From an uncultured Opitutia bacterium (GTDB lineage Bacteria > Verrucomicrobiota > Verrucomicrobiia > Opitutales > Opitutaceae): a stretch of DNA of 44,113 nt. The notes beneath the pieces were generated by a model. That model ran no database searches. It worked only from the letters and a program-made list of their open reading frames with translations, and was not told where the DNA came from. This document shows positions 26,688-44,113 of this stretch, in pieces. The position numbers and the translations under genes were made by a program. Where the stretch lies: the NCBI GenBank assembly GCA_903855985.1, contig CAIOAO010000012.1, forward strand, positions 1 through 44,113, in the 5' to 3' direction. Every line of letters starts with the position of its first letter. Position 1 is the stretch's first letter.

Positions 26688-26778
<91 letters not shown>

Positions 26779-27007
26779 CCTTCGCCAAGCCTACGGCTGG
26801 CAGGCCCTCCCCCAGAAACACCTGAGGCTGCGGCCATGTCAGGGATTTCATCCCACGAAAGCGAAGGATGCCCGCCGCAGGCTCGGCGGAGGAGGGCCTA
26901 CGTTCCGAAAAAACAGGCTCATTGTCGTTACGGTTTCCTAACGCTGCCTTGTTCGTTGAGTGTTCGGCGAAGGCGAAAAAACAGCCACCAGAGCCCCCGT
27001 TTGCAGC

Positions 27008-37833: not shown

Positions 37834-38673
37834 ATGGCTGAAACCGCTCCCCGCCCCGCCCCGGTCGAAGCCGCCGTCCCCACGGCCGCCGAGAAATTCA
37901 CCTTCGACAACCAGGGCTACCTCGTCCTCGAGAATTTCCTGACGCCCGATCACGTCGCCCGCCTCACCGCCGCCATCCACCGGGCTGTCGCGCGCCGCCG
38001 TGAACTCGTCCGCACTGGCGCGCCGCAGACCGGATTCACCCAGACCAAGAGCGAGAAGAGCACGCGCTTCTTCTACATCCTCGACGACGATCCCCTCTTT
38101 CTCGAACTGCTGGACTGGCCCGCGCTGATGCCCTACGTGCACGCGCTGATCAACCCGAAGCCGCACCACCACGGCTCCGACGTGATCGTTGAACACGGCG
38201 GCGACTTCATGAACCGCCAGGGCGAATGGCACCTGGACGGCCATGACAACGGCTACCGCAACCTCGGGTACCCGATTCCGCTCCTGCAGCTCAAGGTCGG
38301 CTTTTATATCTCGGACATGACCGCGCCGTGGCAGGGCAACCTCACCGTCGTGCCCGGCAGCCACAAGGCCCGGCTCGAGCCCACCGAGGCGGACCGCCAG
38401 CGCCGTGACTTCTTCCCCGGCGCCGTGCAGGTCTGCGCCCCCGCCGGCACCGCGATCCTGTTCCACAACGCCCTCTGGCACACCGCCGCGCCCTATTCCG
38501 GTCCGGAGCGCGGACGCACGATGATCTATACTGCCTACGAGCACCCGTGGATGGTCGGCTCGCAGGAGCACTGGGGCTACACCAAGGAATTCTACAACCA
38601 GCGCCTCTCCCCCGCGCAGCGGAAACTTTTTCACGGCTTCGTCTTCGACCCGCCGGAACAGCGCTGGGGTTGA
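37834..38673 (+). CDS. Phytanoyl-CoA dioxygenase (PhyH) family oxygenase, copy 1
   Basis: A 279-residue Fe(II)/2-oxoglutarate-dependent oxygenase. The iron triad is H133 and D135 (EWHLDGHDNG) and H216 (LWHTAAPYSG); the 2-oxoglutarate Arg lies near residue 228 (ERGRTMIY). TVVPGSHK (around 170) is the family's substrate-loop landmark. The N-terminal FLTPDHVARL is typical. Substrate is unknown; family members hydroxylate lipids, ectoine or small metabolites. It is a tandem paralogue of the gene 34 bases downstream, with about four in five residues shared over the C-terminal part. Its start sits directly on a 15-C tract. Confidence 0.88.
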   Translation: MAETAPRPAPVEAAVPTAAEKFTFDNQGYLVLENFLTPDHVARLTAAIHRAVARRRELVRTGAPQTGFTQTKSEKSTRFFYILDDDPLFLELLDWPALMPYVHALINPKPHHHGSDVIVEHGGDFMNRQGEWHLDGHDNGYRNLGYPIPLLQLKVGFYISDMTAPWQGNLTVVPGSHKARLEPTEADRQRRDFFPGAVQVCAPAGTAILFHNALWHTAAPYSGPERGRTMIYTAYEHPWMVGSQEHWGYTKEFYNQRLSPAQRKLFHGFVFDPPEQRWG

Positions 38674-38707
38674 GTACTCCCCACCTCCAGTCCCTGACCC
38701 CACCCCC

Positions 38708-39544
38708 ATGGTTGTCTCCGCTACACCCACCCCCTCCGCGGCGCCGGCTCTGACCGACGCGCAGCGTTTCGCCTTTGAGACAGACGGCTTTCTCGTCGTC
38801 GAAAACTTCCTCACGCCGGACCACGTCGCCCGCCTGACCGACGCCACCCACCGCGCCATCGCCCGTCGCCGTGAACTGGTCCGCACCAACCAAAAGCAGA
38901 CCGGATTCACCCACGCGAAGAGCGAGAAGAGCACGCGGCTGTTCTACATCCTCGACGACGACCCCGCCTTCCTCGAACTCCTCGATTGGCCCGCCATCAT
39001 GCCGTACGTCCACGGCCTGCTAAACAAGATGCCGCACCATTGCGCCTCCGACGTGATCGTCGAGCACGGGGCCGACTTCATGGACCGCAAGGGCGAGTGG
39101 CACATCGACGGGCACGACGACGGCTTCCGCAACCTCGGGGTCCCCATCCCGCTCCTCCAGCTCAAGGTCGGCTACTACCTCTCCGACATGACCGCGCCCT
39201 GGCAGGGCAACCTCGCGGTCCTGCCCGGCAGTCACAAAAGCCGGCTCGCCCCGACCGAGGCTGACCGCCAGCGCCGCGATTTCTTCCCCGGTGTCCACCA
39301 GGTCTGCGCACCGGCCGGCACGATGGTGCTGTTTCACAACGCCCTCTGGCACACCGCCGCGCCCTACTCCGGCCCCGAGCGCGGCCGCACGATGCTCTAT
39401 TACTGCTACGAGCATCCCTGGATGGTTGCGTCCCAGGAACACTGGGGCTACTCGAAGGAATTCTACAACCAGCGCCTCTCCCCCGCGCGCCGGAAATTAT
39501 TCCACGGCTTCGTCTTCGACCCGCCCGAACAGCGCTGGGGCTGA
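38708..39544 (+). CDS. Phytanoyl-CoA dioxygenase (PhyH) family oxygenase, copy 2
   Basis: A 278-residue paralogue of the preceding gene with the same iron triad: H132 and D134 (EWHIDGHDDG) and H215 (LWHTAAPYSG). It shares the ends, including the closing VFDPPEQRWG. Differences cluster in the loop around NKMPHHCASD (NPKPHHHGSD in copy 1) and in the N-terminus, which may mark different substrate specificity. It begins 34 bases after copy 1, so the two are probably co-transcribed. The gene converges on the third PhyH gene, with a palindrome between. Confidence 0.88.
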   Translation: MVVSATPTPSAAPALTDAQRFAFETDGFLVVENFLTPDHVARLTDATHRAIARRRELVRTNQKQTGFTHAKSEKSTRLFYILDDDPAFLELLDWPAIMPYVHGLLNKMPHHCASDVIVEHGADFMDRKGEWHIDGHDDGFRNLGVPIPLLQLKVGYYLSDMTAPWQGNLAVLPGSHKSRLAPTEADRQRRDFFPGVHQVCAPAGTMVLFHNALWHTAAPYSGPERGRTMLYYCYEHPWMVASQEHWGYSKEFYNQRLSPARRKLFHGFVFDPPEQRWG

Positions 39545-39552
39545 AAAATCTA

Positions 39553-39600
39553 CCCGCGGTTGACGGATTGGAATCCGCGCCTATCCGCGCAATCCGCGGG
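39553..39600. repeat. Imperfect palindrome between convergent PhyH genes
   Basis: Left arm 39553-39568 (CCCGCGGTTGACGGAT) and right arm 39583-39600 (ATCCGCGCAATCCGCGGG) are inverted near-copies of the same words seen at 5061-5235. Possibly a terminator for copy 2. Confidence 0.65.
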
Positions 39601-39635
39601 AAGGTATCCCGAGGTTCGGCAGCCCTGCCCTGAAC

Positions 39636-40565
39636 CTACTTTTTCTTCTTCGCCTTCGCCGCCTTTGCCTTCTTCGGCTGCCAGGCATCCCCGAGCGTGA
39701 ATTTCCGCGGATCCACCGGCTCCACCAGCGTGCGGTACTTCGGCGCGCGCGTCCAATGTGCCTTGCCGTAGAAAAGCGTCTGCAGGTGTTCCGGGATCTG
39801 CGCCTTGAACTCCGGGCTCAGATCGCCGCCATCCCAGTACGGGAACTGCCGGGTGCCATAGCCGCACACGATGATGGCCCGCTCGCGGTCGCTTTTGATC
39901 CGACCCGTCGCATGCATCAGCGTCTCGGCAAACAGCAGCGTCGATCCCGCCGGCGCGATCACCTGGTGGATCAGCGAGCGGTCCGCGTACGCGCACGCAA
40001 TCATGTCGTCGTGCGGGATATCCAGCTTGTGGCTGCCCGCGATGACCACCGTGCCGCCGTCGTCCGGCCCGAGCTCGGTCAGATTCGTCAGCGTCTTCAC
40101 AAAGCTGCAGTGAAACAGCCCGTTCTTCGTGTGCGTGCCGTACGGCACGTCCATGCCGAGGTGCAGGTCAAACTTGGGGTTGGCCTCGAACTTGTCGTCG
40201 GGGTTCCGGCTGTTGATGTGCGCGTTGAGCTCCACCATCCGCGCCTCGCCGCCGATGACCTCCTCCGCCATGCCCACCAGCCGCGGATGCGCCGCGTAGG
40301 CCGCGATGACGGGATCCGCCTCGCGGATCGTCGCCATGAAAACGTGGTGCGGCTTGTCGATGAGGAAATAGGGCTCGGACGGACTCGGCTGGTAGCCCTT
40401 GGGCCGCGCCCGCAGGTCGCGCTTCAGCTGCTGCAGCGCGGACTTGATCGTCTCGCACTCATCGTGGCTCAGCACGCCGGGCACGACCACGTAGCCAAAC
40501 ACTTCAAAGTGATAGCGCTGGGCCGGGGTCAGGGCGGGAAAAGGGCGTTCGAAGACGGGGGGCAT
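39636..40565 (-). CDS. PhyH-family oxygenase-like protein with HxG in place of HxD
   Basis: A 309-residue PhyH-fold protein started at ATG 40565 (MPPVFERPFPALTPAQRYHFE). The landmark VVIAGSHKLDI is present near residue 174. Aligning this landmark with the tandem PhyH copies puts H135 where HxD starts (KFDLHLGMDV), but residue 137 is Gly, not Asp; an Asp follows only at 139. The distal H218 (LMHATGRI) and the Arg at about 227-229 are kept. HxG/HxA sites occur in Fe/2-oxoglutarate halogenases, so unusual chemistry or loss of normal hydroxylation is possible. From memory, related environmental PhyH proteins also carry LHGG here. The C-terminus is Lys/Ala-rich (KKAKAAKAKKKK). It lies 32 bases after the AraC gene on the same strand. 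Confidence 0.8.
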   Translation of the reverse strand: MPPVFERPFPALTPAQRYHFEVFGYVVVPGVLSHDECETIKSALQQLKRDLRARPKGYQPSPSEPYFLIDKPHHVFMATIREADPVIAAYAAHPRLVGMAEEVIGGEARMVELNAHINSRNPDDKFEANPKFDLHLGMDVPYGTHTKNGLFHCSFVKTLTNLTELGPDDGGTVVIAGSHKLDIPHDDMIACAYADRSLIHQVIAPAGSTLLFAETLMHATGRIKSDRERAIIVCGYGTRQFPYWDGGDLSPEFKAQIPEHLQTLFYGKAHWTRAPKYRTLVEPVDPRKFTLGDAWQPKKAKAAKAKKKK

Positions 40566-40597
40566 AAAAATGGATTTGGGCGGGTGCCGGGTGCAGC

Positions 40598-41482
40598 TCA
40601 AGGGGATTTCGCCAGCCACGCCCGCGGCGAGCGGCCTGTCACCCGCTTGAACGCCCGGCTGAACGTGAACGGATCCGCAAACCCCAGCTCCAACGCCACC
40701 GCCTTCACGCTCGCCTCCGGCTGACGCAGCCGGCGCTGGGCCAGCGCGACGCGCTCCACGAGGATAAAGCGCCCGAGCGGCGTACCCGTCTCGGCGCGAA
40801 ACAGGCTCGTGAGATAATTCGGCGACACGTGCACCGCCTGCGCCACCTCCGCGAGCGTGAGCGCCCGGCCGGTGTTTGCCCGCACATGGTCCGCCGCGCG
40901 CCGCACGAGCTGTGCCCGTGTGTCGAGCTGGGCCTCACCGCCGTCCAGCACGCGGCGGTACAACGCCAGCGTGAGTGAGAGCATCGCCTCGCGCAGCACC
41001 TCCGGGTCCGGCCGGCGGGGCGACGCCGCCAGTCCGCGCAGCACCGCCAGTTTTTCCCGCGCATCCGCCGGCAGGAGCGCCAAATTCATCAGGTGCTCCA
41101 TCGCGAAGCCGCCGCGACGGGCGTAGCGGGTGACGTGCAGCCGCGGTTCCGCCTCGTTGAGGCTCCACCACGCCAGCCGGTAGCCCTCGCCGGGCCGGAC
41201 GTAGGCCTCGGCGTGCGGCAGTCCCGCCGGCAGCACGACCAGGTCACCCGCCTGCAGCACGCAGCCCGTGTGCTCGAAACTGAACCGGCAGCGTCCCTCG
41301 AGCAGCAGGCAGAGCTCGGCGTGGTCGTGCGCGTGGTCCTCGCCGTAGAGCACCGGTGAAAACCGCATCTTGTGCCGCCGGTCCTGCGGCCGGGTCCCGC
41401 GCCACGGGCCCAAGACGCGGCCGGCGTCGAGTTTCCCCAACGCCACCACCAGGTCCTGCCCAAGAAAGCGCGCCAATGCCAC
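40598..41482 (-). CDS. AraC-family transcriptional regulator with N-terminal cupin sensor
   Basis: A DNA-binding regulator with an N-terminal cupin-like ligand domain (LYGEDHAHDHAELCLLLEG, then AGDLVVLPAGLPHAEAYV). The C-terminal half has a double helix-turn-helix: TLAEVAQAVHVSPNYLTSLFRAETG and VKAVALELGFADPFTFSRAFKRVTGRSP. The start is uncertain: GTG 41482 gives 294 residues, while TTG 41551 or GTG 41449 are alternatives. It lies immediately upstream of the HxG PhyH gene and probably controls it, and perhaps the nearby PhyH pair. Its ligand is unknown. Its upstream region borders the composition break. Confidence 0.9.
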   Translation of the reverse strand: MALARFLGQDLVVALGKLDAGRVLGPWRGTRPQDRRHKMRFSPVLYGEDHAHDHAELCLLLEGRCRFSFEHTGCVLQAGDLVVLPAGLPHAEAYVRPGEGYRLAWWSLNEAEPRLHVTRYARRGGFAMEHLMNLALLPADAREKLAVLRGLAASPRRPDPEVLREAMLSLTLALYRRVLDGGEAQLDTRAQLVRRAADHVRANTGRALTLAEVAQAVHVSPNYLTSLFRAETGTPLGRFILVERVALAQRRLRQPEASVKAVALELGFADPFTFSRAFKRVTGRSPRAWLAKSP

Positions 41483-41597
41483 GACAGCGCGATACGGCCC
41501 ACCCCTGAGACAGGCAAAGGCATTTTTACTAACCAAGGTGCGCCCAACCAAACCGGTGCCCGCGAATCACGCGAAAGGACGCGAATCCGAACCCGGT

Positions 41598-41626
41598 GAT
41601 TGAAGATTGAAGATTGAAGATTGAAG
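41598..41626. repeat. Four tandem GATTGAA heptamers at the composition break
   Basis: GATTGAA is repeated four times without interruption (41598-41625) and followed by GG. All sequence before it is GC-rich and all sequence after is AT-rich. Fragments of the palindrome words (CCCGCGAATCACGCG at about 41560-41580) lie just before it, and none occurs after it. Confidence 0.85.
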
Positions 41627-41642
41627 GAAAATAGTGTGGGTC

Positions 41643-42137
41643 TTATTTGTTAATTAAAATATTTTTTGCTAAATTTATTTTTGACGCTAAATAATCAGAC
41701 CCGCCTCGGTCTGGATGATTTTTTTGTATTAATTTACGATGAGCAGCTATGATGCTATCTTTTGAAGCGCCAGGTTTTAAGCCTAATACTTCATAAGCCT
41801 CTTCGACTGACATTTTTCCTTTATTGCTATTATTTTCTTTGCGTTGTGATGAGCTCTTTTTAGAGCCGGAAAAAGAGTGCCACAACCTTTGTATGTGCGG
41901 TGCATAATTTAGCAGCATCGGTATGAGTCGCATTAGAAAAGCGACAGCTAAACCAATGAGCGCAAACAACCAATTTAAGCGTCCAGTGGCCGTTAAAAGG
42001 AGAACCAAAAAGCCAATAATGCTGAAGATTATGATTTTTGTATATTTTGCGAATAGTGCCGGAGATGTTTTTAGAAATGTTCTACCAGCAAAGTAGATAA
42101 TGATAAGCAAAAATAAAATTAAATAAATTTGAATCAA
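41643..42137 (-). CDS. Membrane-anchored J-domain (DnaJ-like) protein
   Basis: A 164-residue protein with an N-terminal membrane helix (MIQIYLILFLLIIIYFAGRTF) and two further hydrophobic segments (KIIIFSIIGFLVLLLTA; LIGLAVAFLMRLIPML). A Ser/Lys linker leads to a C-terminal J domain with the HPD motif (IQKNHPDRGGSD). The J domain stimulates Hsp70/DnaK ATPase; the topology resembles TIM14-type co-chaperones, putting it at the membrane. It is AT-rich and differs sharply in codon use from the rest of the window. It is divergent from mobB, with about 84 bases between. Family assignment is secure; the role is not. Confidence 0.85.
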   Translation of the reverse strand: MIQIYLILFLLIIIYFAGRTFLKTSPALFAKYTKIIIFSIIGFLVLLLTATGRLNWLFALIGLAVAFLMRLIPMLLNYAPHIQRLWHSFSGSKKSSSQRKENNSNKGKMSVEEAYEVLGLKPGASKDSIIAAHRKLIQKNHPDRGGSDYLASKINLAKNILINK

Positions 42138-42221
42138 TACTTTCTCCAGAATTGATGATCTTGAAACAATAATACCTTAGAATAAGGAAACTCACGATAA
42201 CGGTTATATGATTCGCTTATT

Positions 42222-42746
42222 ATGCAACATGCTCTTGTCCCAATATTAGGGTTCTCTGCTTTTAGCGGCACCGGTAAAACTACCTTATTGATACGGTTAA
42301 TTCCAATTTTAAAGCATCATGATTTGCGTATTGGTTTAATCAAGCATAGTCATCATGAATTCCAAATAGACCATCCAGGCAAAGATAGTTTTCGCTTGCG
42401 TGAGGCAGGGGCAGCAACGGTCATGCTCATCTCATCTCATCGTCGTGCCATTATTAGCGAGATTTCACCAACAAGAGAACCCAATCTTGATAATGAATTG
42501 AAGTTGTTAGATCAATCCGGACTTGATTTGATTTTAGTCGAAGGATTCAAAACAGAGCAATTTCCAAAAATTGAATTACACCGTTCTTCACTTAACAAAC
42601 CTTTGCTTTATCCCAATGATCAAAACATCATTGCCATTGCAACTGATACTGTTATGACACTACCAGACAATCTTATTTTATTAGATATAAATGATCCTGA
42701 AATGATAGCAAAATTTATTTTAAAGCAAATGATGGGGCGCCTATGA
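42222..42746 (+). CDS. mobB: Molybdopterin-guanine dinucleotide biosynthesis adaptor protein MobB
   Basis: A GTP-binding accessory protein for MobA in bis-MGD cofactor assembly. The 174-residue product has the P-loop GFSAFSGTGKTTLL near residue 10-24 and the family HSHHEFQIDHPGKDSFRLREAGA region. VEGFKTEQFPKIELHR (Walker B-like VEGFK) follows. It overlaps moeA by four bases (ATGA), so the two are co-translated. AT-rich codon use matches the neighbouring J-domain gene and not the upstream 41 kb. Confidence 0.95.
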   Translation: MQHALVPILGFSAFSGTGKTTLLIRLIPILKHHDLRIGLIKHSHHEFQIDHPGKDSFRLREAGAATVMLISSHRRAIISEISPTREPNLDNELKLLDQSGLDLILVEGFKTEQFPKIELHRSSLNKPLLYPNDQNIIAIATDTVMTLPDNLILLDINDPEMIAKFILKQMMGRL

Positions 42747-43993
42747 TTGATTTGTGTAGCCAAGAATCTAGCCCAATGTTACCTATAGAGGATGCACTGG
42801 CAAGAATTAAAAACACTATACATCCGCTTAAAGCCTCAGAAACAGTTCTTTTAAAAGATGCCTTGGGAAGGATATTATCAGAAGCAGTATATGCGCCAAT
42901 TAATAGCCCTAATGAAACAAATTCTGCTATGGATGGATATGCTTTTTCCAGTGCAGAGATCACTAAAGGACGCGAGTTTAGTCTTAATTTAATTGGCACT
43001 TCTTGGGCGGGCAGGCCATTCAAAGGGGTACTGCAAGCTGGGCAATGCATTCGAGTTTTTACTGGCGCAGTAGTGCCGTCTGAAGCCGACTCCATTATTA
43101 TGCAGGAACACGTTGAGAGCGATGGACAATGGATTCATTTTCCAATTGATACCATCGGAGGCCAACATATTCGAGAAGTAGGTGAAGATATGCGGCAAGG
43201 TTGTTTATTACTTGCTTCACCTAAAAAACTGAATGCCATTGATCTGGGTTTATTAGCCTCTGCCGGTGTTTGTGAAGTGTCGGTTAATAGGCCGGTAAAA
43301 ATAGCCTTTTTTTCAACAGGTGATGAATTAACTGAATTAGGCAAGCCTTTGTTCTCTGGACAAATATATGACAGTAATCGATATGCTTTGCATGGATTAT
43401 TGAATGATATCAATTATATAGCAACAGATATGGGAGTAATTGGAGATGACAAGCAATTACTAGAAGAAAGGTTTATTGAGGCTGCAAAAAATCATGATGT
43501 GTTCATTACAACTGGTGGAGTATCGGTAGGTGAGGCTGATTATGTTAAAGAAATACTTAGTCGTTGTGGTGAAGTCAATTTTTGGAAAATTGCAATTAAA
43601 CCGGGAAAACCATTAGCTTTTGGAAAAATAGGAGACTGTTATTTTTTTGGCTTGCCGGGTAATCCTGTTGCTGTAATAGTGACTTTTCAGTATATAGTTT
43701 CTCCAGCTCTTAAGCACTTATTGGGTGCGACAGAGACAAAAACTATAAAACTCGCTGCGATTTGTACATCAACACTTAAAAAAGCACCCGGCAGACAAGA
43801 ATACCAACGTGGCATACTGACGCAAGATGCCGTCGGTAATTTTTTTGTCGCGTCATCAGGCAAGCAAGGTTCAAATATCATGAAATCATTAAGCGAAGCG
43901 AATTGTTATATCGTTTTGCCAGTTGCTTGTGAAGGTATACAGGCGGGAGAGAGAGTTATGATTGATCTTATCCCCAGTGATGAGTGGATATAA
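42743..43993 (+). CDS. moeA: Molybdopterin molybdenumtransferase MoeA
   Basis: MoeA inserts molybdate into adenylylated molybdopterin to form active Moco. The 416-residue protein has the full domain set: N-terminal MDGYAFSS, the domain around MQEHVESDG, the MoCF_biosynth (MogA-like) core with FFSTGDELTELG, FSGQIYDSNRYAL, TTGGVSVGEADYVKE and GLPGNPVAV, and a C-terminal beta-barrel. It is translationally coupled to mobB. Together with mobB it supports molybdenum cofactor synthesis in whatever organism this AT-rich segment belongs to. Confidence 0.97.
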   Translation: MIDLCSQESSPMLPIEDALARIKNTIHPLKASETVLLKDALGRILSEAVYAPINSPNETNSAMDGYAFSSAEITKGREFSLNLIGTSWAGRPFKGVLQAGQCIRVFTGAVVPSEADSIIMQEHVESDGQWIHFPIDTIGGQHIREVGEDMRQGCLLLASPKKLNAIDLGLLASAGVCEVSVNRPVKIAFFSTGDELTELGKPLFSGQIYDSNRYALHGLLNDINYIATDMGVIGDDKQLLEERFIEAAKNHDVFITTGGVSVGEADYVKEILSRCGEVNFWKIAIKPGKPLAFGKIGDCYFFGLPGNPVAVIVTFQYIVSPALKHLLGATETKTIKLAAICTSTLKKAPGRQEYQRGILTQDAVGNFFVASSGKQGSNIMKSLSEANCYIVLPVACEGIQAGERVMIDLIPSDEWI

Positions 43994-44113
43994 GTAAAGT
44001 AAAGTCAACTCATGATTTGTCTATGGATAGCACCAAAGTTATACTTGTTTTTATAATACGGAAAGCATTGCTTTTGTTGTTTTGTGAAAGTTTTAATTAA
44101 ACTGTGGAGATAA
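43994..44113 (+). other. AT-rich tail without a gene, ending in a ribosome-binding-site-like motif
   Basis: About 120 bases after the moeA stop hold no coding frame of note. The window ends ...CTGTGGAGATAA, where GGAG may be a Shine-Dalgarno sequence for a plus-strand gene starting just beyond the window. Confidence 0.35.

Follow-up and report, generated by a model that had tools for sequence, protein, structure and literature searches.

By its sequence, the 44,113-base contig C12 is almost certainly a metagenome assembly chimera, in which a GC-rich host genome is joined to a 2.5 kb Methylococcaceae fragment, and thus an artefact rather than a case of gene transfer. The window, i.e. the whole stretch of DNA analysed, is identical with this contig. 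The host genome, presumably verrucomicrobial and Opitutaceae-like, comprises 2.94 Mb in 110 contigs and has an estimated contamination of 0.69%. The meaning of the finding is one of data hygiene only: MobB, MoeA and the J-domain protein encoded in the window are not creditable to the host, and removal of bases 41,598-44,113 is advisable, as the untrimmed segment would mimic transfer between distant bacterial groups.

Composition along the contig

GC content amounts to 0.661 in positions 1-41,597 and to 0.374 in positions 41,628-44,113. In windows of 150 bases, it drops from 0.607 (41,450-41,599) to 0.300 (41,600-41,749). The tetranucleotide distance between the right part and the host is 0.475, while 79 equally sized host windows reach at most 0.128. 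Starts of other contigs of the same genome (starts only) were used as a further reference. From 109 starts requested, 17 consisted only of N and were dropped; the 92 readable ones display a mean GC content of 0.658 and a maximum tetranucleotide distance of 0.222. Since the lowest GC content among them is 0.542, the right part lies well below the values observed in this genome. A preliminary description of this DNA, made from the letters alone, had reported an abrupt composition break near 41.63 kb and had proposed this comparison of GC and tetranucleotide profiles on its two sides; both profiles bear the break out. The foreign segment (41,628-44,113) extends to the contig end without return to host sequence.

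A Markov likelihood scan placed the change point at 41,505. An AT-rich intergenic stretch blurs this estimate, and the junction was placed without it. The start of contig C19 of the host genome (G000; L162:1-3000) is a composition outlier among the contig starts, with GC content of 0.542 and tetranucleotide distance of 0.222. Rfam search of three low-GC contig starts, this one included, returned no match.

The right part and its methanotroph relatives

Three genes are found right of the break: a J-domain protein gene (41,643-42,137, minus strand; Pfam DnaJ and Pam16), mobB (42,222-42,746, plus strand; Pfam MobB, 4e-49) and moeA (42,743-43,993, plus strand; NCBIfam PRK10680 equivalog, above cut-off). 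Pfam thus agrees with the gene names given in the preliminary description. The closest of 80 loci listed, L009, is a contig from the MAG of an uncultured member of Methylococcaceae (isolate Loc090907-8m_bin-840). Over the last 1,568 bp of the window, starting at 42,546, its nucleotide identity is 98.2%, and its MoeA is 97% identical in amino acids. A second locus, L010, aligns from 41,642 through moeA, with 81% identity over 2,354 aligned bases.

The order of J-domain gene (minus), mobB (plus) and moeA (plus) recurs in all four methanotroph relatives that were read (L010, L012, L013 and L014), the J-domain gene being colinear in each of them. Other methanotroph genes lie beyond the J-domain gene in these loci, and moeA is followed by an isocitrate dehydrogenase-like gene, the product of which contains MHNVTLIKGDGIGPSI. 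In L009, the gene after moeA likewise encodes an isocitrate/isopropylmalate dehydrogenase according to Pfam; when its likely start codon is placed from L009, the window ends 2 bases before it. The window therefore shares genes, order and orientation with this Methylococcaceae neighbourhood, but its block breaks off immediately ahead of the dehydrogenase gene and is joined to a GC-rich genome at the other side. By gene content and order, the right part is an ordinary J-domain/mobB/moeA block of a Methylococcaceae chromosome. The L009 bin lacks the J-domain gene and the junction side (only 55 bp matched there), so that the left neighbour in the donor is not readable at near identity.

The preliminary description had also proposed to examine the taxonomy of MoeA relatives; the closest of these belongs to Methylococcaceae, and the window protein lies away from the MoeA-like proteins of host type. 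In a phylogenetic tree of 93 rows, the window MoeA is sister to that of L009 (support 100/99) within a clade of 41 rows, mostly Methylococcales. The MoeA-like protein of the host genome, encoded on contig C74, clusters with proteins of congeners. Those of G001 and G002 form long branches, neither of them near the window row, that of G001 being basal on the proteobacterial side; for joined long branches, the tree tool gives a general warning. The window MoeA type was detected in none of the 11 other congeners, the best other match having 36% identity. Search for additional methanotroph contigs with PF02461 (methane monooxygenase) gave no match, and the control genomes were without match too.

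The AraC gene, its usual continuation and the junction

The last host gene before the break encodes an AraC-family regulator (40,598-41,551, minus strand; Pfam HTH_18, HTH_AraC and AraC_binding). Ten of the 11 other congeneric genomes contain a match to it, with 77-95% nucleotide identity; G006 yielded only a repeat match. The sequence that usually continues from this gene is found on another contig of the host genome, C93, which starts inside an AraC gene. Its first complete genes encode a NifU-like scaffold and a class-V aminotransferase, which we take to be sufU and sufS. In six of the ten congeners (G002, G004, G005, G008, G009 and G011), AraC is followed by the sequence of the C93 start within about 0.3 kb. 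In three others, AraC and sufU-sufS are separated by extra DNA, namely 1.35 kb in G001 (GC content 0.756), 6.29 kb in G010 (0.714) and 5.94 kb in G007 (0.706). The AraC-sufU-sufS order also occurs in another genus (G028), with 1.5 kb in between. Positions 395 to about 2,094 of C93 are 94-99% identical to G005, as determined in steps of 100 bases.

The first 257 bases of C93 (L107:1-257) are 84% identical to positions 41,272-41,527 of the window (minus strand), which cover the 5' end of AraC and a few upstream bases. Comparison of the two sequences indicates that the bin contains two alleles of this 5' end, and the copy on C93 is the one that continues into sufU-sufS. Because identity is only 84%, the gene order on C93 is typical of the bin, not strict proof for the strain of C12. 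In the remaining congener of the ten, G003, the contig ends inside AraC, i.e. it also stops in the gene that has two alleles in the host bin.

The interval between AraC and sufU is a variable spot, with extra genes at L109:8543-14832, L115:9959-15897 and L114:1681-3032. Those of G010, G007 and G001 presumably resemble histidine-utilisation genes.

The last recognisable host sequence is an intergenic repeat of the CGCGAATCACGCGAA type (41,548-41,596), which recurs at 15 further sites of the host genome and the alignment of which reaches 41,596. A host-type intergenic repeat is present at a similar position after AraC in the congener G009. Since methanotroph homology starts at 41,642 in the nearest loci, the switch falls inside 41,597-41,641, in accordance with the earlier estimate of a few dozen bases. 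In BLAST alignments, three distant methanotroph loci reach further left, L026 from 41,639, L024 from 41,636 and L033 from 41,614. The last of these (64% identity) runs into the heptamer array described below and was taken as an edge extension.

A perfect tandem repeat, (GATTGAA)4.1, is located at the junction (41,598-41,626, plus strand) and is not assigned to either side. No other strong repeat is present at the join; the far edge of the segment is outside the contig. The preliminary description had stated that no transposase, integrase, tRNA or direct repeat marks a natural insertion edge. This holds for mobile genes (none of the three segment genes is mobile according to Pfam) and for tRNAs (none within 14 kb of the break), but not for direct repeats, given the GATTGAA array. 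A 15-mer of the array was found only in the host genome among 18 genomes searched, that is, in none of 10 congeners and none of 7 methanotroph genomes; any bridging role of the array is therefore only putative. A host repeat was rejected as its source, as a 22-mer has no occurrence elsewhere in the genome with up to 2 mismatches and no exact occurrence in the other 37 relatives.

Explanations for the join

The contig unites two segments that differ in taxonomic origin and meet abruptly, and the usual continuation of each side is found elsewhere (sufU-sufS for the left part, the dehydrogenase gene for the right one). As both usual continuations are known and no genome examined joins the two sides, a chimera is by far the simplest explanation. 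Assembly of the host would have broken at the 5' end of AraC, a break which the presence of two alleles in the bin would explain. The loose host end may then have been joined via, or beside, the short (GATTGAA)n tandem repeat to the 2.5 kb methanotroph fragment, both organisms presumably having shared one sample. The starting k-mers of the assembler MEGAHIT would be short enough for confusion by a repeat of 29 bases.

The isolate name of L009 suggests Lake Loclat, which belongs to a stratified-lake dataset (PMC8121793). MEGAHIT was used for assembly of that dataset, and binning was applied to contigs of 1,500 bases or more (Metabat -m 1500). Among the host contigs, the shortest has 1,518 bases, which is compatible with this pipeline and no proof of the same origin. 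The GUNC paper describes misassembly as relatively rare beside misbinning (PMC8201837), a point against the present reading. Like the chimeric contigs treated there, C12 unites two unrelated lineages in one contig at low estimated contamination; it differs from them in that the usual neighbours are nameable on both sides and that a tandem heptamer is located at the junction.

The preliminary description had preferred a chimeric join, with recent horizontal transfer as the alternative, and had named an independent genome with the same junction among the findings that would speak against it. The junction was found in none of 56 other related genomes, and the 98.2% identity to L009, the methanotroph gene order and sufU-sufS on C93 support its preference. 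A very recent transfer, which would have brought the molybdenum-cofactor locus of a gammaproteobacterial methanotroph into an unrelated host at a variable site upstream of AraC, is very unlikely. Variation of the gap between AraC and sufU among relatives would suit it, and the AraC allele of the window differs from that of C93, so the strain of positions 1-41,597 could differ there. However, the extra segments of the three congeners are all GC-rich, unlike that of the window, and the J-domain protein, MobB and MoeA genes stand in native methanotroph order. Near identity to L009 with unmodified composition argues against transfer as well, as do the second AraC end leading into sufU-sufS in the same bin, the lack of a tRNA near the break (the nearest is located at position 26.7-26.8 kb) and the absence of the other insertion edge from the contig.

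The abrupt GC drop taken by itself would also fit a composition island native to the host lineage, which we regard as practically excluded. When positions 40,550-42,400 were used as query, the right part found no convincing match in the 56 other related genomes; only G044 matched it, with two hits of 28-33 bp (E about 9e-4). Placement of the window MoeA among Methylococcales, apart from MoeA-like proteins of the host genome and congeners, and its absence from the latter are likewise contrary to a native island.

Phage and plasmid origin were rejected. No phage match was obtained, and DNA matches in the plasmid collection were confined to short stretches of moeA in 3 records (69.0-70.5%). At the protein level, MoeA matches occurred in 190 plasmid-collection records, all below 60% identity (best 48.6%).

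Two features of the left part may be added. Three PhyH (phytanoyl-CoA dioxygenase-family) genes are clustered at 37,834-40,619, beside the AraC gene; the first two are similar to one another, and matches to this pair vary in number and position between congeners. At 26,688-26,795, ARAGORN predicts overlapping tRNA-Ser (plus strand) and tRNA-Arg (minus strand), of which one is probably a genuine gene and the other its antisense.
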